DNA of 64,000 nucleotides from Polytrichum commune. Its lineage: Eukaryota > Streptophyta > Polytrichopsida > Polytrichales > Polytrichaceae. Location of the stretch: contig OX485806.1 of assembly GCA_950295325.1 (NCBI GenBank), forward strand, positions 28,398,001 through 28,462,000. The letters are read 5' to 3'. Both the position numbers and the translations under genes were made by a program. The notes under the pieces are model-generated. The model was not told the DNA's origin, did no database searches, and saw only the letters and a list, made by a program, of their open reading frames with translations. This document shows, in pieces, positions 401 through 12,720 of the stretch (its first letter is position 1; each line of letters begins with the position of its first letter).

Positions 401-842
401 GTCCCATCACCAACAAACCAGATAGATAGAAACTCCGGTCCCTTTTAGGGGCCGGCGTGAATGGAGTGTCCGTTCGTAATGCCAACAACCCGATGCCCAC
501 AGGACATGGGGAAGCTGGGACAAAACTACTCTCCTCTTTCGAGGATGGACACTATAGTAACCGAGAAACAAATAACGTGGGCCGATCATGGCCCACGGCG
601 GTGCATGCCTTTTAGGTATAATTAGTGTTTTTGTTATGAGAGTGAACGCCAAGTCATGATTCCTCGGTTGGTTGTGGGAGGATGTTTGAGTTAAGACGTT
701 CCGGGTTCGATTTCAGTCGAGTCCGTATGATCGTCTAAAATGTAACGCGTGACTTGGTGCTGCAAGTGAGTAAAAAGCAGGAATTTGTACCAACCAACCG
801 GCACCAATCCCTCATTCCGAGCTGTAAATAGATACTAAATAT
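401..842. other. Unassigned flank of the retrotransposon
   Basis: No gene was recognised. The short minus-strand frame at 407-652 has no recognisable content. A GGGTTCGATTT string near 704 resembles a Pol III B box, but I see no A box, tail or target duplication around it. A (TA)n tract at about 843-860 marks the probable 3' end of the minus-strand element. Confidence 0.4.
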
Positions 843-873
843 TATATATATATATATATTTTTTGGGTGGGTT

Positions 874-3588
874 TTATGGAGGGTCTAAGTTTTGGGGGAG
901 CGGTTGGTGGTTTTCAATTCTCCTCTTATGGAGGAGGATGGACATGGCATATTGTATTGCAATGGTATTAATGTTTTTAAAGGTATTTTTGATGGTAACC
1001 AGGGGTATTTTGAGATTTTCTTCTAGTATTTTCATAGATGGGATGTGGGCCGTAGCTCGGGCCCCAGCTGTGATGACAATAAGTGGTTCGATTTTCCATC
1101 CTCTGGAAGCAATACTATCAATCAAAGGTTTGTATTTGTTGTTTTTTGCTTCTATTGTTTCTGGGGAAAATCTGTCGTTACAATATGTGAATTCAATAAA
1201 TTGTATGGTGAGGTTAGGGTCAATGTCAATGGGAGGGTCATTTTGATATGGTAATCCTTTAACGCAGAGTATATCAGGTCGAAATCTTGCGTTGCAATGA
1301 CATCTTTGTGTGTTACATGTACAGGGGAGTAGCCAATTGGGGACTGTATTTTCTTGGGGGTTATTATTGAAGGTACCGGCATTCATGAGAGTAAAACATC
1401 GGGATTTTTCGGACGAGATTAGAAGCTTCCTAATTTCTCTGACTGCTTTGTTATGTCTTTTAATTCGTAGTGAGTGTATATGTTGTTGGTTGCATTTCAG
1501 TAGAACATGTAGCCAAGTGTCTGGATCGTTTGAATTGCATATAGGGCATGTGATAGAGGGGTACCTCTGGTGACCGAAGAACATTTGTTTTCTAGCATTA
1601 CCCATGTATGTTCCTGTACGGAATTTAATAAGGCATGATTTTTGTTTGTCTGTGATTAAGGGATTTGTCCAGAATTCGTTGGACAGTTCTTTGTCAATGT
1701 CTCTATTTTCTGTCCATTTACACGTGTTGGGGGTTTGTGTGGCCATGATTGCTATATTGGTTTCCCTATCATATTTTTTAATTTGTTTTTCTAAGAATCT
1801 TACTGGGCCTTTGTCTGGGACGTCTGCCATCGAGGCCCAGACGTCCTTTTGGTAATAATACGGGATGGCGTGGGCATGTTCGTATGGGTGGATGGCAATT
1901 CTGTGTTCTAATTCTAACCCGGCTTTTGCTAGTTTATCCGCTTTTTCATTACCGTCAATGTTGACGTGTGCTCTGACTTTGTATAGTGTGATTGGCTGTG
2001 TACGGTCTTGGAGGATTTTTACCATGGAGTTGAGTGTGGTTTGGTCGGGGTGACTATTATGGAGAGTGGGGTGTTTAATTTGTGTATTGAGTAGGTATAA
2101 TACGTTTAGACTGTTTGTGAATATGTATGCGGGTTCATTAGGGAATTTTGTATTGATGATTCTTAGTGTTTTGTGTATAGCCATCATTTCTGCACGTAGT
2201 ATGTTTTGATGCCCATGGAGTCTTTTGGCGATATTTAAGCCTTTGGGGCTATAGATACCGTATCCAGCTCTTTCTCTTCTCCATACCCCAGGGGCAATTT
2301 CTTTGGGTTTTATAAAGGATCCGTCCGTGTAGTAGCTAAATTGGGGGTGGAATTTTAGCGGTAAGTTAGTTTGGTAGTTTGGAAGTTGTGGGGTGGGGAT
2401 ATTCTTGTGTAGGGGTGTGTTTGGGTAGTTTGATTTAGCCCATTTTTTACTAGGGTTAACGGTGGTGTTTAGAGGGGTGGGTGGTGCAGTTTGTGTGTGA
2501 CTTTGTAGTATTTGGAGGTTATTTGCTGTGTCGCTTATTAATTTCATTTGTTCGTAGGTGCCTATGTTATTGTTTTGGTGATGGATACAAAATATTTGTA
2601 TGGTAGATGGTTCTTTTCTTGTGGTATTGAGCTCGGAGGGTATTGTGGGTTCCTCATACGTGATCGTATCAGCGGCGAAATGGGCAATGACGTGTGTGTC
2701 TGGGAATGGGCCTGTGTGTGGGTTGGAGTTTTGGTACCAATTAGTATCCGGAGATATAAGTATAGTGATTGTATATGGATCATTTTGGGCCGCTATGCGC
2801 GCCCAGTGAATAGCTTGTTGTAGGTCTGTTGTATTATGAGGGTGTGCGTAACCGATTCCTTGCCATTTATGGTCAAACGCTTTACCTAGGGATCCAAATA
2901 TTATGTCTCGCGAGAATGGTGAGTAGAATTGGATGAATTGTGTGGGGCATATAACTGGGGATGAAAAATATGAGTGGTTAATATTGAATGTTGTAATCAG
3001 GAGATCTAATATTTGGGTTGGTATTGTATATTGGGCTCGTTTGAGTGGGTCATTTTTTGGGATACGGTATTTGTACCTTTGGTATAACCAAACAATTTCA
3101 GTTTCGAACGATTGGGTAGATGGTTCTAGACCGTGTGTGTTGTTTTTTGCCAATTGGTATTGTTTCCATAGCCATGTTAGTCTAGCTTTCGGGATGGTAA
3201 TGAGGTGTCGGCCATTGTCTTCGTATATGTGAGCGACATCGAATTGTGTTTGGATGGTATCAGAGTTTGTTTGGATGTCGTTTTCTGGGTTGCATTCATT
3301 AATAGAGATATGTGCTAGTGGAATTATTGTGGTTGGTGTGACGTATCTTGTGTCTCTATGTTGTTCTGTGGAGAAGTAGACATTAATTATGTTTGAAAAA
3401 TGTTTGTGTTGTCTTTCTTTGTAGTAATGAATAAGTAGGTCTATGTTGTGATTACATGTGTTGGCTTCACAGTAGGGGTATAGGTCCCTTTGAGTTCGCC
3501 ATTTGTTATATGTGTTGTTATTTGTTGTAGTCCATTGATATAAGTACGACGTGACTGTTCTTTTTATTCCGTTATGGTCATTGGATTG
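874..3588 (-). CDS. Retrotransposon C-terminal region: RNase H, CCHC knuckle, RLE-like domain
   Basis: This frame is entered by a -1 shift at 3588 and stays open for about 904 codons. Numbered from the TTG at 3153, RNase H spans about 272-412: YTDGS (Asp277), RAEMMA (Glu322), TNSL (Asn347, where the family has Asp) and GNEKADKLAKAG (Asp406). Three of the four acidic catalytic positions are kept. A CPIC...H...C knuckle lies at 536-554. The tail (611-735) has a CTC...CHC cluster, RPD (625-627), EFTYCND (654-660), NNKYKPL (671-677) and a following ITAGARA strand. This spacing resembles a PD-(D/E)XK restriction-like endonuclease, although ExT replaces the usual E/D-x-K. Residues 65-140 (SRDIIFG, WQGIGYAHP, ILISPDTNW) vaguely recall a methyltransferase fold. 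RNase H is secure; the other two assignments are tentative. Confidence 0.85.
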   Translation of the reverse strand, partial: QSNDHNGIKRTVTSYLYQWTTTNNNTYNKWRTQRDLYPYCEANTCNHNIDLLIHYYKERQHKHFSNIINVYFSTEQHRDTRYVTPTTIIPLAHISINECNPENDIQTNSDTIQTQFDVAHIYEDNGRHLITIPKARLTWLWKQYQLAKNNTHGLEPSTQSFETEIVWLYQRYKYRIPKNDPLKRAQYTIPTQILDLLITTFNINHSYFSSPVICPTQFIQFYSPFSRDIIFGSLGKAFDHKWQGIGYAHPHNTTDLQQAIHWARIAAQNDPYTITILISPDTNWYQNSNPHTGPFPDTHVIAHFAADTITYEEPTIPSELNTTRKEPSTIQIFCIHHQNNNIGTYEQMKLISDTANNLQILQSHTQTAPPTPLNTTVNPSKKWAKSNYPNTPLHKNIPTPQLPNYQTNLPLKFHPQFSYYTDGSFIKPKEIAPGVWRRERAGYGIYSPKGLNIAKRLHGHQNILRAEMMAIHKTLRIINTKFPNEPAYIFTNSLNVLYLLNTQIKHPTLHNSHPDQTTLNSMVKILQDRTQPITLYKVRAHVNIDGNEKADKLAKAGLELEHRIAIHPYEHAHAIPYYYQKDVWASMADVPDKGPVRFLEKQIKKYDRETNIAIMATQTPNTCKWTENRDIDKELSNEFWTNPLITDKQKSCLIKFRTGTYMGNARKQMFFGHQRYPSITCPICNSNDPDTWLHVLLKCNQQHIHSLRIKRHNKAVREIRKLLISSEKSRCFTLMNAGTFNNNPQENTVPNWLLPCTCNTQRCHCNARFRPDILCVKGLPYQNDPPIDIDPNLTIQFIEFTYCNDRFSPETIEAKNNKYKPLIDSIASRGWKIEPLIVITAGARATAHIPSMKILEENLKIPLVTIKNTFKNINTIAIQYAMSILLHKRRIENHQPLPQNLDPP

Positions 3589-6500
3589 TTTTTTTGTTTA
3601 TGATCGATTATTTTGTGTATGGGGAATTGTCGGGGGTCTTTAAGCATGTTGTTGGGAGGAGGGGGTAGAGGGGGGATGGGGAGGTTAGGGGGGTGTACGG
3701 GGGCGGTTGGTGGGTGTGGTAGGATATTGTGGTGTTTTATTATATATTTATTTTTTAGGGATCTTAGTGGATGGTGTTGTTGGCATGGTAGGGGGCATTG
3801 ATTTCCAGGAGGGCGGCAAAATAATTGATTAGCTATGTTAAGTGCGTTTTTGATAAGTTTAGAAGGAGTGGAGTGATAGATTTTGAATTCGTCCGGGTTC
3901 ATTAGAGTGGTACCATTAGGCATGGTAATTTGGTCTAGTGTGATTATATTATGTACAAGTAGTTTGTGTAGTAATTTAAGTGAGGTGTTGGAATTTAGGC
4001 CATGAAGCATTTGTGCTTCCTGCATCCATGCAGTTTCAAGTGGGGATGGGGTTAGTAGGAAATTGTTTATTGTACTTTTTAGGTGGACTCCGGCTTTATG
4101 TTTGAGCAAGAATAATGTTCTAGTGATGGGTGATCTAACACAGTGGTGGTATTTAATGCGGGTGATTTCCTTAGAGCCCCCATATTTGGCGAGTATGAAT
4201 TGAAGTAGACCAACATATATTTTCCCAATTCTACCTTTATCATTGAGTGCGTTTTGTAGTTGTTCTCCAATGCATCTTAAATAGGCATTTTGTAGTGAGA
4301 ATGCTTCGATTCCGAATAGATTGTGTGGGAGTTGTGTAGCGATGTTAGATGTGCATTTGGGTATTCGGCATATCGTTTTGTGAAGTGCTATGATTTTTTT
4401 ATCGAGTTTTTTGATAGCTGGTATGGAGTATGGCACTGCGTAGAAGCTGTATGCTATTCCAGCACGTATGACTATATCTGCCATGTTTATTTTTTGTTTC
4501 ATAGTAGCTGGGCATGTTACAAGGGCTTGACACTGTTTTATTACTTTAGCTGTAGTGGTATTTATTTGTGTTTTCCATTTGAGTGATGGTGCAAGATTTA
4601 TTCCTAGATACGTGTATGGTTCATGTTGGTTTAAGACTGGTATAGGTTGGTTTCTGTAGTTGATATTGGTAGATTGGATTAGGGCTTTAAAGGTTGTGGG
4701 GTGAAGTTTGGATTTATTTGGGTATCCAGTTATTGCGCATTTGGATATTCCAAGATCCATTCCGGCCCATTCGCAGAATTTGTCTAGTTTGTTGAGTTGT
4801 GTTTGTAGTGTCTCTAGTTTATTGGCGATTGCTGCTAGGTCATCTGCATATGCTGCTGATGAGATTGTAATTTTAGATGTACCAAAAGTGTATCCATTAT
4901 TCCCTTGTTGTAGCCATCTGAGGAGGGGTTCTAGGAATATGATAAATAGATATGGGCTAAGGGTATCACCTTGTATTGTACCTCTTTGAATGGGGATTGG
5001 TAAGGTTTTACCGAAGTGTTCACCAGTGAATATTATTGAGGATTGTGAATATATGTTTCCTATGAGATTTATGGAGTCAGTGGGATATTCCAGATATTTC
5101 ATTATGGCTAAAAGTCTGGCGTGATCAATGGAGCCGAAGGCGTTTTTGAAGTCAATGTAAAGAATATATATATCTTGGTTCGTGAGTCTTGCGTCTTCAA
5201 GCGCTGCGATTAATAATTGGATTTGCCTAGAAATGTTTCTCTCTGCTCTAAACCCTTCTTGACTATCGTGTAATATTTGGTATTTTTCTCCATACGCTGA
5301 TAGGATAGAAGTTAATGTACTCGTGTAGAATTTATATATGGTGTTAGCTAGTGCAATAGGTCTATGGTTTGTTAGTTGTGATGGGTTACCTTTTTTGTAT
5401 AGTAAAACTGTTAGACTGGTTTTCCATGATGCAGGGATTTGTTTTTGTTTATAACAATGTTTAAAAAATAAGAAGAGTAATTTATGGAAGCGTGGAGACA
5501 TGTTTTTTAGAATTGAATTGGGTATTTTGTCTGGGCCTGGGGCTTTGTTATTACTTAGGTTTTTAAGACAAAAGTCGTATATTTCTTGGTCAAAATACGT
5601 GTGTAGAGGGGTTTGGGGTTCTCCTCGTTTGTCAATGATATATCCGTCTAAGTTATGCCATGGATATTGCCGGACTCCACATATGCAGTGTAGTGGGTGT
5701 GTATTTTGATATTGGCATGTGGGAACTGTAGGACGGTTACTGATAGATTGTTGCGTGTATATTTCTGCTTCGATGTCTTCTGGGTTAGTTAATATATTGT
5801 TTTGTCTATCAATGATGGAGTCCAAGGGTGAGGTTTCAGTGTTCTTGAAGACTTTTCGATTTATCTTTTTGGGGCTTTTTTCATACATTTGACGGTATTT
5901 TGATACGGCCTTTAGAATGCAGTCTTTGGTGTATTTTGTGGTGATTTTCCTGGCTTCTTTATTTGCATTTTTTGTGATGGTTGCTATGGCATCAATCCAT
6001 TCAGTAGGAGGTGCCGTTGTAACAGGTGGGTGTGGGATGTTTGTGTGTTGGTGGTTTCGTATATCGTTTAGGATGGGGTGTGCTTGCCAGAGTGGATCGT
6101 GTTGTGCAATGTATATGGTTTTCCTGATGAGGTGATATGTGTTGAGGTGTCTTTTCCATTTTGTCGCAAGTTTGCGTGGCAAAAACCCATCTTGTTGTGA
6201 TGTTCTGTTCGTAAGGTTGGGTAGTGGGTCTGCTTTACAGGTTTCTTTAATCGTTTCTAAAATTTTGTATACAATGTGGTCGAATGTTGTACAGGCTTCC
6301 GCCCATTGATCCGGGCTTAAGTGTTGGTGGTTTTCGAGTAGGGTGGTAAGGGTTTTTATTTGTGCAGAGTTTTCTTCGAAGAATGTTATGTTGAATTTTT
6401 CGATGTTTTCTGGTGGTATTGGATTTAGTATTCTAGTTGGTGACGTGTTTGTGGGGGGTGGGAATCTGGCTATAAGGGTGTTGTGGGGGATATGTAGTAC

Positions 6501-7679
6501 AACTGGATAATGGTCTGAGTTTAGATTCATGTTTGTGATTGTGGTAAAAATGAATTTGTTGTTGTCTGGTGAGTGAATGTAGAATCCATCTATTAGACTT
6601 GTTGATGTGTAATTATAGCCTCCTTGTCTGGAGATGCTAGTGTTAGTTGGGATATATTCTAGGTTGAGTGATGCGGTGAAAATTTTCCATTGGTAATCTT
6701 CTTCTTGTGGAAGGGTGTTAATGTTGTTATTTTGTCTGCCTCTAAGTGCGATATCTCGGTTAAAGTCCCCACATAATGAATACATGTGATTGGGGTGTAT
6801 AGTGATTTCGTTAGTGATTTCGTTCTTAAGGTGTGGAATGAGGCATGTGTCTTCTAAGTGTGTAGGCATGTACATGTGTATGATTAGCCAAGGTATTAGT
6901 AGATGGTTGTTTATTTTAATTATTTGTAGGTATGGGGATATATTTACTGGCGTGGGAATTTTGGTGATATTCCCAGGGAATGCATATTTCTTGTGGATAA
7001 GTGTGAGTAAGCCTCCTTTTCCGGGGGTATAGGGCATTCTTTGTTGTATGCATCTTGTGAGTGCATGTGTGTTGTTGAAAATGAGTTTAAATTCCGGAAA
7101 TAGGTTTTGTATGTATTTTGTAGATTTATTTGCGGTTAGTTTGGTTTCTTGGATATGTATGATTGCTGTGTTGTTTAGCGAGTTGTTTATTAGGCTTTGT
7201 AGGTTTGGTAATGATGTGTTGAGTGATGACGTATTCCATGTTATTATGTTTGTTTCGTGCTCGGTGTCGGTGTTAATTCTTGGGGTTGGTGTGGGAGTAG
7301 CTGGGGGTGGGGGTGGGTGTGAATATTCGTTGATGCTTTCTAGGCATCGGAGTGCTTCGGTGATCAATTGATTTGGGAGGAAGGGAAATTTATTTTGAAG
7401 GGTGATTGGTGTTGGTGTAGTATCTTGGTTGTGGATAAATTCATATATCTCTGTGTGTATTGAATTTTTTGGGTATATTATATGTTGATTGTTTTCTACA
7501 AAAGTTGTGTAGGGGTGAGGTGTTGATATATGCCTTTCGGGGGGGTTGGTGAGGTTGGCCAGTCTGATAATCAGTGTGTTCGTCCATATGTTATTAAAGT
7601 GGTAGTTTTGGGGTTGGGCTAGTATGTTATTGCATGTGTCTATTGAGGGGTGGATGGTGATGATTAGAGCGTATAGCAT
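3564..7679 (-). CDS. Retrotransposon ORF2: APE endonuclease and reverse transcriptase
   Basis: This 1371-codon frame encodes the endonuclease and polymerase that drive target-primed reverse transcription. The APE domain spans about residues 144-400. Its motifs are WNTSSL, IQETK (Glu178), GDFN (304-307), IDGFY (Asp364) and SDH (388-390), all intact. The RT spans about residues 700-1030, with NKAPGPD (711), NHRPIAL (771), FRAER (810), YIDFKNAFGS (841), RGTIQGDTLSP (899), the catalytic AYADD (943) and GISK (977). A Cys-rich CICG near 665 precedes the RT. Met at 7679 is only the first Met. The frame is open upstream to about 7797, so the true N-terminus probably comes from the 2A-bearing frame. 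The frame ends ten codons after an A-AAA-AAC heptamer, and the -1 frame then carries the RNase H. It looks intact apart from the frame offsets. Confidence 0.93.
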   Translation of the reverse strand: MLYALIITIHPSIDTCNNILAQPQNYHFNNIWTNTLIIRLANLTNPPERHISTPHPYTTFVENNQHIIYPKNSIHTEIYEFIHNQDTTPTPITLQNKFPFLPNQLITEALRCLESINEYSHPPPPPATPTPTPRINTDTEHETNIITWNTSSLNTSLPNLQSLINNSLNNTAIIHIQETKLTANKSTKYIQNLFPEFKLIFNNTHALTRCIQQRMPYTPGKGGLLTLIHKKYAFPGNITKIPTPVNISPYLQIIKINNHLLIPWLIIHMYMPTHLEDTCLIPHLKNEITNEITIHPNHMYSLCGDFNRDIALRGRQNNNINTLPQEEDYQWKIFTASLNLEYIPTNTSISRQGGYNYTSTSLIDGFYIHSPDNNKFIFTTITNMNLNSDHYPVVLHIPHNTLIARFPPPTNTSPTRILNPIPPENIEKFNITFFEENSAQIKTLTTLLENHQHLSPDQWAEACTTFDHIVYKILETIKETCKADPLPNLTNRTSQQDGFLPRKLATKWKRHLNTYHLIRKTIYIAQHDPLWQAHPILNDIRNHQHTNIPHPPVTTAPPTEWIDAIATITKNANKEARKITTKYTKDCILKAVSKYRQMYEKSPKKINRKVFKNTETSPLDSIIDRQNNILTNPEDIEAEIYTQQSISNRPTVPTCQYQNTHPLHCICGVRQYPWHNLDGYIIDKRGEPQTPLHTYFDQEIYDFCLKNLSNNKAPGPDKIPNSILKNMSPRFHKLLFLFFKHCYKQKQIPASWKTSLTVLLYKKGNPSQLTNHRPIALANTIYKFYTSTLTSILSAYGEKYQILHDSQEGFRAERNISRQIQLLIAALEDARLTNQDIYILYIDFKNAFGSIDHARLLAIMKYLEYPTDSINLIGNIYSQSSIIFTGEHFGKTLPIPIQRGTIQGDTLSPYLFIIFLEPLLRWLQQGNNGYTFGTSKITISSAAYADDLAAIANKLETLQTQLNKLDKFCEWAGMDLGISKCAITGYPNKSKLHPTTFKALIQSTNINYRNQPIPVLNQHEPYTYLGINLAPSLKWKTQINTTTAKVIKQCQALVTCPATMKQKINMADIVIRAGIAYSFYAVPYSIPAIKKLDKKIIALHKTICRIPKCTSNIATQLPHNLFGIEAFSLQNAYLRCIGEQLQNALNDKGRIGKIYVGLLQFILAKYGGSKEITRIKYHHCVRSPITRTLFLLKHKAGVHLKSTINNFLLTPSPLETAWMQEAQMLHGLNSNTSLKLLHKLLVHNIITLDQITMPNGTTLMNPDEFKIYHSTPSKLIKNALNIANQLFCRPPGNQCPLPCQQHHPLRSLKNKYIIKHHNILPHPPTAPVHPPNLPIPPLPPPPNNMLKDPRQFPIHKIIDHKQKNNPMTITE
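3588..3594 (-). promoter_or_regulatory. Candidate -1 ribosomal frameshift site A-AAA-AAC
   Basis: On the sense strand the zero-frame codons are CAA-AAA-AAC. This is an X-XXY-YYZ heptamer in exact register, 21 nt before the zero-frame TAA at 3564-3566. A -1 slip enters the frame that runs open through RNase H to 874. The -1 frame has its own stop a few codons upstream of the heptamer, so the two frames overlap only around this site. I see no strong pseudoknot downstream. A simple indel in the A7 run is the alternative. Confidence 0.45.
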
Positions 7680-7821
7680 ATGGGTTAGTGGTGATTGCCT
7701 TTGTGTTTGGATATATTGATGTAGATGCGGGTAGGTGGTTATTGCTTGAGGTGTAGTGGGTGTGTGTTTTTTAGTATGGGGGTAAATGTGTTTGCTATGT
7801 GTTGGTATTCAGGTTGTAGTT

Positions 7822-8604
7822 TTATATTGTTTGGAATGAAGTAGATGTTGGCTCTTTTTTGTGTGTAGCAGGGTGTGTATGTAGGATGTTAGGCATTGGT
7901 CCGGGGTTGGGTTCTATGTCCCCGCATTTTAGCAATTCTAGTTTGTTAATAAAGTAGTATCCGTGGGAATGGAGTGTTTTTGGATTTTTCATGTTTGTTT
8001 TTAGATATATTATGATTGTGAACTTGGTTGTAGTAAAGAGGTTAGGTATAGCGTGTATGATGTTTTCTATTTGTTTGGGTGAGAAGTGTGAGTTTGTATT
8101 TTTTATAGATTTTTGGCTTGTTATTGAGTTAGGTCTCCAGTTATTTATGAAGTGGTATGTGTTATTATTTGTATGGCGAGGCCGGTAGGCCGAGGCCATT
8201 GTATCTTTTGGGTGAGGTTGGTATTTTGAATGAGGGTTTAATAGGTGTTTGAAATAGGGTTTGTGATGGTGTTTGATGTTGAGGTGAGGTTTATTTAGGG
8301 CGAGTAGTTTATATTTACTTCTTGTAAATAGATTAGGTAAGGCAATTATTGTTTTTTGTGTAGTTTTTGGGAGGTAGTGTATAGGTTTAGTATGTTGGTG
8401 GGTAGGCTTTGTGATTGTGTTAATGATGGGGTTGAGGGAGTTGTAGTGTATATATCTTGTTAGTTTTATTTTATGGCGAGGCCGGTAGGCCGATGCCGTA
8501 TTGTGTACTTTGTTGTATTGGTTAGGATATTGTTGTATTACGAGTAAATATATTTGTTTTTGTGAGGTGTTGGGGGGGTTTTCTTTGTGAATTTTAGTAT
8601 TCAT
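7822..8604 (-). CDS. N-terminal ORF of the retrotransposon, ending in a 2A-like peptide
   Basis: This 260-residue reading frame has two imperfect ~100-codon repeats. Each opens with the octapeptide ASAYRPRH and contains a later A(L/I)PNLFT block. A canonical 2A-like motif, LLKCGDIEPNPGP, lies near the C-terminus. 2A sequences make the ribosome skip the Gly-Pro bond, which would release this ~235-residue product from whatever follows. Only 24 codons follow before a stop. Continuity with the endonuclease-RT frame needs two -1 shifts, at A-runs 7855-7860 and 7767-7772. I therefore read it as the front of ORF2 rather than a separate gene. The function of the repeated domain is unknown. The start is the first Met of the frame. 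Confidence 0.75.
   Translation of the reverse strand: MNTKIHKENPPNTSQKQIYLLVIQQYPNQYNKVHNTASAYRPRHKIKLTRYIHYNSLNPIINTITKPTHQHTKPIHYLPKTTQKTIIALPNLFTRSKYKLLALNKPHLNIKHHHKPYFKHLLNPHSKYQPHPKDTMASAYRPRHTNNNTYHFINNWRPNSITSQKSIKNTNSHFSPKQIENIIHAIPNLFTTTKFTIIIYLKTNMKNPKTLHSHGYYFINKLELLKCGDIEPNPGPMPNILHTHPATHKKEPTSTSFQTI
7897..7923 (-). other. 2A-like ribosome-skipping motif (GDIEPNPGP)
   Basis: The codons read Gly-Asp-Ile-Glu-Pro-Asn-Pro-Gly|Pro, preceded by Leu-Leu-Lys-Cys. This matches the D(V/I)ExNPG|P consensus at every defining position. Skipping is expected between the final Gly and Pro. Such motifs are known near the N-termini of some non-LTR retrotransposon proteins (trypanosomatid ingi/L1Tc and some animal elements). 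Confidence 0.88.
8173..8197 (-). repeat. GC-rich hairpin block, downstream copy
   Basis: This 25-nt block (plus strand begins ATGGCGAGGCCGGTAGGCCG) matches the block at 8473-8497 at 24 of 25 positions. It lies exactly 300 bp away. On the sense strand it can fold as a GGC/GCC outer and GGCC/GGCC inner stem around a 4-nt loop. It encodes ASAYRPRH. It is far more GC-rich than its surroundings. Confidence 0.7.
8473..8497 (-). repeat. GC-rich hairpin block, upstream copy
   Basis: Partner of the block at 8173-8197, with a single base difference. The surrounding protein repeat has diverged heavily. The DNA identity is therefore higher than the protein similarity of the repeat predicts, which hints at selection on the nucleic acid or recent local gene conversion. 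Confidence 0.7.
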
Positions 8605-8726
8605 GAATACTATAGGTAGGGTTTTATTTTTAGTATATATTAATAATTTAATTATGTTTTTGTTTTTAGTATATAAATATACTATAAGTAATTTATAATT
8701 GTACGCCGCCGGGATGTTTGTCGAAA
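8605..8726. other. AT-rich spacer between the 2A frame and the upstream ORF
   Basis: Very AT-rich DNA with several AGTATATA-like strings and a short GCCGCCGG patch at 8704. The strong A/C bias of the element's sense strand ends here. It may be an ORF1-ORF2 spacer or the element's 5' boundary. Confidence 0.4.
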
Positions 8727-10928
8727 TTAGTTTGTCAAGTCCATATTGTTTTCAATTTTCGATATGTCCGGATGAGCCGCTTCTATAGCATCCAAGGTAA
8801 TCTTCATTTGCCTTTGAAGGAGTTGTATTTGGAGCTTGAAATTCTTGTTTGACTCCGCTTGCACATGGTCTGCGTAAACCTTAGCCTCTTGCACAATCTC
8901 ATCTTTAAGGTTCACCATTTCCTTTCGTATTTCATCCGTCCCCTTGTTTACCGCTGCTTCTACCATTTTGTTGAGATCTTTGTTGGTGATGTTTTGGTGC
9001 GGTCCATTCTCCAGAGCTTGGATGGTGTTTGCAAGTGCGGTGTTCACGTCTGAAAATCCAAGTCTAACTAGCTCTTCTTTACTAGGTACATTTATCCCCT
9101 CTAGACTTTTTGGATGGGGGGTAAATTCAACATATTTACCAAATATTTTTTCATTTTTCTTAACAAATTTCTTGTAGACAAACGAGTTGAGGCATTGGAC
9201 ATTGCATGAGCCCGTATGCTTCCCGTTCTCAAGTCTAAAGTAAAAACCGAGAACATTTAATTATCCCATGCATTTTCGGATTCCTTCTTCAATTTGCATG
9301 GTTGTTTTTACCTTATTGAGGTTACGGGCGATTAGAATGAGTGCATTCTTTCGGGCTTTATCATCTTCTGAGAGTTTTTCATTACTTGCAAAGTTTACAT
9401 CTACTATTTCATTAAAAAACGAAAGTTTGAGTGCTTTAATTCTTTTGGCTTCCTCTGGAGAGGGTGCTTTAATCCAAGCAAACTCTGCATCCACCGATTT
9501 TTGCACATTCGTTATTTCAAAGTCAAGGCCCCGTCGAAATCCATCCCCAACTATTTCTACAAACAAATCATACCATTCTTTACCCTTGATTGACGGGGTT
9601 GTGATTTTGACGGAGAGCATGGATGCAATTGCAATGGTATCAAAGGATTTACACACTTTGCCTATAGTATGTGTAAATTGGCCAAGCTTGAGGATGAAAG
9701 GTCTCAATCCACAGAGAAGGCCATATCCATCCATTTCAGGGTTTTTAAGGTGGAGTTTAATAATTCCACTCCATCTTTTGGTCCCATGAAAACATAGGAC
9801 AGCTATGGGCTCTCCTAGGACTTCCCCGACCTCTATCCTCATTGTTTTTAGTCTATCCTTTGTTAAGTTGAGTATCACATCTCTCTCCAATTTTATTCTT
9901 TCAATTTCAAAATGAATAGATATGTGATAGTCCAAAGCAAATCCATGGTCACCCACTTCCACATCTGAAGGAATCTGGGTGAGATTGTAGTGCATTCCCT
10001 CCTTACAATCCGTTCGTATAGAAGGCCACTCTTCTTGGGCAACGAACGGAAAGGAGGGAGATGACTCCACCATTTCATGTGCTTCAGACTCACACATACC
10101 TGTTTTGACTAACTCAGTGGAAGAAGGTGTTTGAATGAGAGGCATGTTGGCAAATTTTGCAATTGTGTTCATAGCTTGAAAACCAAGCCAATAGGGAGGG
10201 CGTGTTCTCTCAGTGGGTGCTATTCCTTTAACCTTTTTTTGACTTGACAATACCACAGCAAGCACTGGACGTTTTCCACTTGTAGAATCTATATTTTCAT
10301 TTTCAAACAACTTACGGGATGATGAGGTTGGAGTGATGGTTGCCATTCTGATATAAGCAAAGCAAACAAACGTTTTGTACTTTAGTTTTGAATGAGGTAT
10401 ACTTCTTATTTTCTTTCCTCTAATTCCTTTCCACAAATTAAGTTGTGGGCCTCCTAGGAATTGAGAGTGAAAGAAGAAGTGATTTGCATGTTCTAACATC
10501 ATATGAGTACTAGTATGAGTACAACTTGCATTCATCCTATGATAACACCTTTTCCTATTCATATGAATCTTCATATTAGTATTTACAAATTGGTTGTAAG
10601 TGCTCTTATGTAGATTATGATTTGTCACAACTCTAACATTCCGTACATCTCCTAAGCATTTGAGGCAAGTATAACTAAAAGCGCAAGCATCTACCGTTAC
10701 TACCACGGATCCATTATTTCTAATGGGACATACATTTATGATATGAACATTAAGGTTGTTATACCATACCTTTGGATTTATGACGTTCTTATATGTGTTT
10801 TTAAAGCAAGAGTTTGTAAGGCATTCCCATGTGGTGTGAGAGTTGACACTATGAGAGTATATCCAGTATGGTGTGGCTAGTACTAGCCACATAATGATAA
10901 CAAGGTAGGTTGCATATGCAACCTTCAT
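8727..10928 (-). pseudogene. Possible ORF1 (gag-like) of the retrotransposon, split by an in-frame TAA
   Basis: One frame of 734 codons is interrupted by a single TAA at 9261-9263 (555 codons, stop, then 177 more). The first 194 codons contain a hydrophobic start and many Cys/His. The likelier start is the Met at 10346 (MATITPTSSSRKLF). The middle part has features of an RNA-binding fold (for example WSGIIKLHLKNPEMDGYGLL and LRPFILKLGQ). After the stop comes FYFRLENGKHTGSC with a short CxxxC, then a charged, coiled-coil-like C-terminus (about 8740-8960). It is collinear with and upstream of the element's ORF2, which fits a LINE ORF1. Its codon composition is ordinary, however, and lacks the A/C bias of ORF2, so it could belong to another element. 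I do not recognise the family. Confidence 0.5.
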
Positions 10929-12720
10929 TTTGCTTACTATCCTAACAAACCTATCAATGCTATGATGTGTCTAAGACTATGTGTGTGCCTATGTGCAAAT
11001 AATGAGAAAACAAATTAACGTGTAAACTTACCAAGCGGATGACGGGCAGCAAAACGACAGGCCGTGCCGTGTTTGCAGACCTCTGGGTTCCAGCAGCAAA
11101 TCTCCGAATCGGAACTCCTCCTGGGATAGGATTTCAATGGCCCTCCAAGTTGAACTACTCGTAGTGCCTAGCAGCTCCAAAATTCGGTTTAGTCTCTCCA
11201 ACTTCGACCAGGCAGCAACGTCTTAGCTGTACAATTTCTCAGCTCCGTAGTTCCACAACTTCAGGACTCCACCTTTCGCAGCAGCTTACTTCGTAGTCTC
11301 GGCTTCACACTTCGCAGCTACTCAATTTCGAAATTCTCACCTTCAGCAGCTTCACAACAGCAGTTTCACAGCAGCAGCTTCGCAGCAGCGGCTTCAGCAG
11401 CAACTTCACAGCGGCTCTTCTTACTAGTATCTACAGTATTTGTTTGCAGCTCCAGCAGCTACTACTCGATGCTGCAGCTGCGTTCAAACAAGAGCGGCAT
11501 CACTTTGGGACGGGATTCTGATTTGAAGGGTTTGTTTCGATTTGAAGGGACGAGACTCTGATTTTGGATTTGGGCGAGTGAGAGAGTACTGGGCAAGTAT
11601 GTTTAAGACGGTGACTAACTTCTATGGGTTGCACTTGGGTAAGAGTATGACGAAAGGTTTGCTACAGATCTTGATCAGACACTGGAAGAACTTTGCGAGT
11701 GGGAGGTTTTGATGAGCCAACAAGAATGGGGTTATGCAGTAAAGTAGCTATGGGTATATCTGGGCAAGATTGCTGTGTTTAGCCTGTGAATGAACAGTTT
11801 CTACGAATTTGGAGCAATCAGTATGGAGAGGACTTAGATCTATGGGAGTGGGGGAGAACGAACTAATGAGATGAGTTGCGGGGAGCAGCTGGAGATGTGT
11901 GTGGGGGAGATCACTATGACTAGTTCGTGAGGGAACAGGATAGAGATTGAATCGAATGTGCGGTGCTTGGATCTAGTGTTGATCTTCGTTGCGATACTGG
12001 CTCAGGTGAACTGGTGTTCGGTCTTCTCTGCGACAGTGGCTCCGGCGATCTGGTGCTGCAACAGACTCCGGCGATCTATGGCTAGGTGAGTTGGTGTTCG
12101 ATCTTTTCTGCAACAGTGGCTTCGACGTTTCTAGTGTTGATCTTCGCTGCAACAAACTCCGGCGATCTGGTGTTGTTTTTTGCTGCAACAGAGACTTCGG
12201 TGATCTGGTGTTGAACTTCGACGCAGTAGTGACTTCGGTGATTTGGTGTTCTTCGGTGGCTGCCTCAGAACGTTGGAGGGGGCGTTTTGGGAGTTTGACT
12301 CAGGGCTCTGGTAACTCCGTCGACTTCAAATCTGGTACTTTGTAGGCTGTTCGGCAGGGGCGTCGAGGGAGATGGCAGCAGCACTTCGTCTTCGGTGCTT
12401 CATAGGTTGTCTGGCGGGGGAGATGTCTCGGCACTTCAGCTTCGGTGACTTCGATGATTCGGCTTTTGTGCTCGGCTTCAGATCTGCTTGGTGTGGCGTC
12501 GTGGGGGATGAGATGAGTGGGAGGTGGGCATATGGGTTTATATGTTGGTGGGGGGAATCTCTGGTTGCCCTTTCGGTGGCTGAAGAGGTGGGTGGCTGGG
12601 AGAAGAGTCACGAGGAGCAACGGTAGCCGCTTCGACCCGTGTTTCCATCCCTGCCTTCGGCAGCCTCACAGCACACCCTCAGGGCTTCGCCAGTTTCCTC
12701 AACAACGCTCCGCCATCGCT
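10929..12720. other. CAG- and CGG-rich region without a recognised gene
   Basis: This stretch is richer in GC than its surroundings, with many CAGCAGC, TTCGCAGC and TCCGGCGATCTGGTG strings. The short frames here are low-complexity and encode nothing I recognise. It lies just upstream of the minus-strand ORFs, so it could contain the element's 5' untranslated region and promoter. I could not define a boundary. Confidence 0.4.
11990..12300. repeat. Degenerate minisatellite (TCCGGCGATCTGGTG-type units)
   Basis: Several imperfect units of about 35-55 bp recur. Each combines a TCTTCTCTGC(G/A)ACAGTGGC-like part with a CTCCGGCGATCTGGTG-like part. Unit length varies and copies diverge. Antisense frames therefore show repeated Pro-Asp-Arg-Arg-Ser peptides without implying a protein. 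Confidence 0.5.

Follow-up and report, generated by a model that had tools for sequence, protein, structure and literature searches.

A conserved 2A (StopGo)-type motif upstream of the polymerase region of non-LTR retrotransposons in Polytrichum commune

The minus strand of a 64,000-nucleotide stretch of Polytrichum commune DNA (the window, which sits on a 59 Mb contig) encodes GDIEPNPGP at 7897–7923, and we conclude with high confidence that this motif is a functional 2A (StopGo) of a non-LTR retrotransposon. Its sequence, its in-frame position, its copy number, and the selection acting on it were observed, while the skipping event and its reason are inferred. A sequence-only reading of the window had interpreted the motif as a 2A that separates an N-terminal leader from the polymerase of a plant LINE. 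This interpretation is supported and essentially right, although skipping itself remains an inference; the corrections to it concern the strand, which is minus, the broken frame of the window copy, leader lengths that vary between families, some families with multiple 2A motifs, and a lineage with Lys in place of the canonical Glu.

The motif proved to be real, and its core DIEPNPGP (7897–7920, minus), assigned from the motif match and codon constraint, had no second match in the 64-kb window. GDIEPNPGP occupies residues 228–236 of a 260-residue ORF (7822–8604, minus), so that the earlier estimate of a leader of about 235 residues was right for the window family, while the leader lengths of other families vary widely. 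Counted from the first ATG, the ORF2 leader (7921–8604, minus) has 228 codons before the core. Its last residues, LLKCG (7921–7935, minus), provide a Leu pair and a Gly immediately preceding Asp. The predicted skip point lies between Gly (7900–7902, minus) and the last Pro (7897–7899, minus), and the sequence after it begins with MPNILHTHPATHKK (7822–7896, minus), which contains a frame change and a stop in the window copy. This copy is broken: the motif frame ends at a stop (7822–7824) 24 codons past the motif, and APE-RT (3564–7808) and RNase H (874–3597) are found in two frames other than the motif frame. In three copies that match the window copy at 98.3–98.5% identity across 3.2 kb, the leader, the motif, and the next region share one frame, and the open motif frame is 2625 codons long in each. 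The motif thus shares a frame with the polymerase in less damaged copies but not in the window copy, whose frame is broken.

The exact core pattern matched 274 sites in the 407.8 Mb genome searched, and the reversed pattern matched none. Searching with the sequence that follows the motif gave 568 candidates, and 150 copies were scored; the scored copies without the window copy and without every fifth of the other 149 made up a sample of 120. These copies had been chosen by post-motif similarity, and D[VI]ExNPGP was kept in 94 of them, 22 were substituted, and 4 had no alignable region. It had been stated beforehand that loss of the motif in other copies, or a motif never in frame with the RT, would refute the interpretation. 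Neither applied, given the 94 copies and the long ORFs in which the motif and the polymerase share one frame. Canonical motifs were present in 48 of 55 young rows of the alignment (nearest neighbour ≥98% identical) and in 47 of 62 other rows; where 200 or more open codons lie upstream of the motif, 57 of 66 rows were canonical and 9 were not. The 22 substituted copies comprised nine with DIKPNPGP, three with DIEPHPGP, three with Lys at p16, and seven single cases, one of which was a stop. The three DIEPHPGP copies include an identical pair with one member on the small contig C50, so that this pair may be a single site assembled twice. When any codon was allowed at p14 and ATGCC was required after the motif, 263 matches were obtained versus 0 for the reversed pattern, and the 100 matches listed of these 263 had Glu (82), His (11), Lys (6), or Arg (1) at p14. 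DIHPNPGPMP alone was found at 39 sites versus 0 for its reverse; these sites show many synonymous differences, and one is on the small contig C24.

Selection on the motif was estimated in 117 rows (116 alignable copies and the window copy) by mapping changes parsimoniously onto a FastTree phylogeny. A dN/dS-like ratio of 0.14 was obtained for the fixed core codons, seven in all (D, I, E, N, P, G, and P): nonsynonymous changes numbered 18 where 90.7 were expected, and synonymous changes 43 where 29.4 were expected; on internal branches, the numbers were 3 and 23, respectively. On the other hand, the ratio was 1.08 for the x codon (13 nonsynonymous changes versus 12.6 expected). The x residue is the sole varying core position: its top residue accounts for 55% of the 117 rows versus 92–100% elsewhere in the core. 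The fixed core residues are thus under strong purifying selection with x free, which is the constraint predicted for a working 2A. The 16 codons before the core and the 18 after it each gave a ratio of 0.39, and the leader (192 codons) gave 1.00, indicating no detectable constraint over the whole leader. This leader value is rough, since the alignment has gaps in the leader and the majority of the copies are probably dead. The nonsynonymous observed/expected value of the core (0.20) was the lowest among 133 windows of the alignment; two leader windows had values of 0.22 and 0.23, close to that of the core, and parts of the leader may therefore be constrained or thinly covered.

The main point against a functional 2A is the DIKPNPGP lineage. 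Copies L053–L055 come from three chromosomes, do not differ within the 931 bases examined, all encode GDIKPNPGP, and have open frames of 1249, 2924, and 2663 codons at their sites. As this lineage is young and mobile, it either tolerates E14K or manages without a 2A, which would then be open to loss, with translation perhaps starting at the Met right after the motif. Such a start could be extended to all copies: leaky scanning or reinitiation would let the polymerase start at the Met of NPGP-Met, leaving the 2A as a relic or an assistant. In its favour, about 98% of the 117 aligned rows have Met directly after the last Pro, and the lineage with Lys for Glu is still mobile. A Met start, however, gives no reason for conserving D, I, E, N, P, G, and P while x is free, and families with Pro-Leu-Ser after the motif have no Met at this place. 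We therefore consider this explanation improbable.

In the skipping mechanism that we prefer, no peptide bond would be made between Gly and the final Pro during the translation of ORF2, and the ribosome would release the leader. Translation would then go on to give a free polymerase protein starting with Pro-Met-Pro and comprising the APE, RT, PCIF1-like, and RNase H domains and a C-terminal endonuclease-like region. Because the leader is unconstrained overall and differs between families, we read the 2A as a leader-removal device, by which a constant, leader-free polymerase would be obtained whatever stands upstream. In some families, the leader itself would be split by further 2A-like motifs.

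The upstream contexts LLKCG, LLQCG, LLLLCG, and ILLSG were found among the copies, and their fit to the L-rich class of contexts was judged by eye. LLKCG resembles this class as known from viral 2As, and an L-rich context with G at p11 was active in a tested example, according to the accessible part of PMC12846837. In the same portion of that source, variants with His at p14 or at p16 retained >95% activity, and E14Q retained 26–56%. The family with His at p14 and the copies with His at p16 thus carry variants that have been shown to be active, though in other contexts. In addition, a 2A sequence worked in a reporter in tobacco leaf cells, as stated in the available text of PMC4981915.

It is also conceivable that the motif was kept as a peptide with another role, such as a signal or binding segment, without any skipping. 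Hydrophobic residues do precede the motif, and N-terminal 2As of sea urchin double as signal sequences (PMC4981915, partial text). Against this, the constraint agrees with the 2A consensus at each residue, and the family-level variants include some with published activity (PMC12846837, as far as its accessible text goes). We regard such a role without skipping as very unlikely, less so only than a chance match or contaminating non-plant DNA, which can be practically dismissed: a chance origin was rejected because none of 100 shuffles of the window yielded the core and the reversed pattern was absent from the whole 408 Mb genome against the 274 forward matches, and contamination is contradicted by copies on all seven large contigs (C1–C7) and by the presence of rbcL and chlL in the assembly. 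These two genes are located together on contig C8, and the plant host assumed in the sequence-only reading is thereby supported. By our reading alone, rbcL points to a moss. The ORF after rbcL resembles what we take to be accD, and plastid chlL presumably speaks against a flowering-plant host.

Twenty further copies were picked by motif from the genome-wide core matches. Judged by reading, their post-motif region is of the MPNIL..HP..HK type or the LSTILKNLP..YTQRQKQYF type. In an alignment of eight ORFs, the leaders hardly aligned between families, whereas the 2A and the following region did. In another family, L142 (1441 codons) contains the 2A, APE, and RT and continues without a stop into the adjoining L151 (1200 codons), which carries the PCIF1-like and RNase H domains. 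Less damaged copies thus encode leader-2A-APE-RT-PCIF1-like-RNase H as a single frame. The core with no more than one mismatch was present in 32 of 33 loci scanned, most of which had been chosen by motif and do not form a random sample; the reversed motif at the same tolerance was not found in 241,637 residues. At least two 2A-like motifs per ORF were observed in 9 of the 32 loci, corresponding to eight places since L143 and L181 overlap. The extra motifs in these leaders are partly degenerate (NLGP, NPGA, and GAIHTNPGP).

Several features of the leaders were observed besides. The overlapping loci L143/L181 (G000 C1, about 66.447 Mb) have four consecutive 2A-like motifs, DIQLNPGP, DIELNPGP, DIYTNPGP, and DIHPNPGP, in one ORF, and the leader of L007 extends over about 900 codons with repeated segments. 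In the window copy, a GC-rich GGCCGGTAGGCC segment occurs twice (8160–8200 and 8470–8500) in an otherwise AT-rich leader. Both segments encode ASAYRPRH, and L004 and L007 have a similar peptide in their leaders.

Downstream of the motif, an APE-type endonuclease region was placed at approximately 6500–7255 (minus) by alignment to L142, L146, and L147, in which PF03372 was at or over the cut-off; Pfam gave no PF03372 match in the window frame itself. This region is followed on the minus strand by a reverse transcriptase domain (PF00078; 4593–5390, E = 1.8e-29), a PCIF1-like domain (PF12237; 2854–3144, E = 6e-10), and RNase H (PF00075; 1915–2337, E = 6.8e-12). At 877–1665 (minus), alignment shows a Cys/His knuckle and PD...E residues, and with two weak PDB matches this C-terminal region is a candidate R2-type restriction-like endonuclease. 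The knuckle, RHNK, and the PD...E residues are invariant in four aligned elements. The only PDB matches of the region were 8gh6 and 8ibw (weak, E = 0.71, chain residues 940–978), both of which we take to be Bombyx R2, and the PD...E subregion alone had no match in PDB. The C-terminal region may thus be a second, R2-type endonuclease, as far as can be judged from sequence. AlphaFold models of single window sequences had a mean pLDDT of 37 both for this region and for the PCIF1-like region and were not used. Searches of viral and prokaryotic genome collections, which are not meant for plants, with RT and C-terminal profiles confirmed no relative.

In the copies inspected (the window copy, L151, and L153), the PCIF1-like domain separates RT from RNase H. 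PF12237 was over the cut-off in L151 (E = 1e-12) and matched at least 150 places in the genome (150 of 697 candidates were scored). PCIF1 belongs to the cap m6Am methyltransferase family and has the catalytic motif NPPF. At the likely place of this motif, the elements have HPPN, HPHN, YPTD, or HPKD, and no PCIF1 alignment spans the site. The sole PDB match of the region was PCIF1 itself (6irx), which was weak (E = 0.28).

Upstream of ORF2, the ORF1 region extends over 8729–10970 (minus), with a 569-codon open frame at 9261–10970 in the window copy; in L001, ORF1 reaches the equivalent of about 8729. The ORF1 and ORF2 open frames of L001 overlap by 25 bases (window about 8729–8751, minus), and no slippery site was recognised by eye at this overlap. 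High-identity alignment of the element covers 420–11060 (minus), with a 3′ (TCTA)n tail at 420 and a 5′ end beyond 11060. The (TCTA)n tail was present at all ten 3′ ends examined. Position 11060 was rejected as a sharp 5′ end since the flanks of ten copies show the element continuing. For ten end pairs, a longest-common-substring search for target-site duplications gave only 4–6 base matches, with the 5′ ends misplaced. The segment CTTGGTAAGT (window about 11026–11060, minus), which recurs mostly exactly in the 5′ regions of ten copies, resembles what we take to be a plant 5′ splice site, and an intron in the 5′ UTR of the element is possible. At least two unlike 5′ regions are found upstream of CTTGGTAAGT.

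Profile searches placed the RT nearer to R2 (7e-33) than to L1 (7e-18); for one L1 RT of the same genome used as a control, the order was reversed (L1, 2e-38; R2, 3e-16). In a tree of 11 RTs, which lacked Dualen and RTE references, the 2A elements and R2 were split from L1 with support of 100/99, subject to a long-branch warning. On this profile and tree evidence, the element is not L1, since its RT groups with R2 RTs. Ordinary plant-type L1s with long open frames (L154, L155, and L156) are present in the same genome. With an RT of the R2 group and a possible second endonuclease, the element looks Dualen-like; it was not filed as Dualen because the second endonuclease is unproved. Dualen/RandI elements have a cysteine protease, and Pfam scans of the window and the other families detected no peptidase domain. 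The combination of APE and a restriction-like endonuclease is the mark of Dualen in the available portions of PMC4640811 and PMC3636483. The Dualen/RandI elements of green algae likewise have APE and RNase H and an RT that falls with R2 at the L1-R2 split; their C-terminal R2-type endonuclease is only suggested in the present element, and the accessible parts of the sources do not mention a 2A or a PCIF1-like domain for them (PMC8226300, PMC4640811, PMC3636483). Plant L1 and RTE LINEs share APE-RT and often RNase H (PMC9033089, in part), while the RT of the present element falls outside L1. Its 3′ tail is (TCTA)n, whereas most plant L1s end in poly(A) (PMC3747384, partial text). These two types, L1 and RTE, were the only plant LINEs named in the accessible part of a 2022 review (PMC9033089).

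The position of the 2A has counterparts elsewhere. In L1Tc/ingi of trypanosomes and in APE-type animal elements, a 2A precedes APE and RT close to where the polymerase frame begins, and 2A-bearing non-LTR retrotransposons were reportedly described in 2006 (Heras) and 2013 (Odon). The element of P. commune shares this arrangement and differs in its plant host, R2-grouping RT, PCIF1-like domain, possible second endonuclease, and up to four 2A-like motifs per frame. The presence of 2A in trypanosome and animal LINEs is already known (references in PMC11512398 and PMC12846837, both available in part). Tandem motifs in one frame likewise occur in picornaviruses with several 2As (PMC11512398, from the portion available), there in a virus polyprotein and here in a retrotransposon leader. 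According to the accessible text of PMC12846837, RNA viruses commonly use 2A skipping, cellular genes rarely do, and plant viruses have not been seen to do so. The earlier remark that 2A is not well described in plant LINEs agrees with our search of the open-access literature, in which no natural plant 2A appeared among the matches listed.

The chances appear to us even that these elements represent a third, dual-endonuclease LINE lineage of land plants beside L1 and RTE, which would be the first reported natural user of 2A in a plant genome, with leader chains of up to four 2As including rare p14 variants and with a PCIF1-like domain taken up. In this one plant genome, naturally occurring 2A copies number in the hundreds; they belong to diverged families, and selection on them is measurable. 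These copies form a natural mutagenesis set for skipping activity, including E-to-H, E-to-K, and N-to-H variants, and the known LINE types of land plants may widen beyond L1 and RTE.
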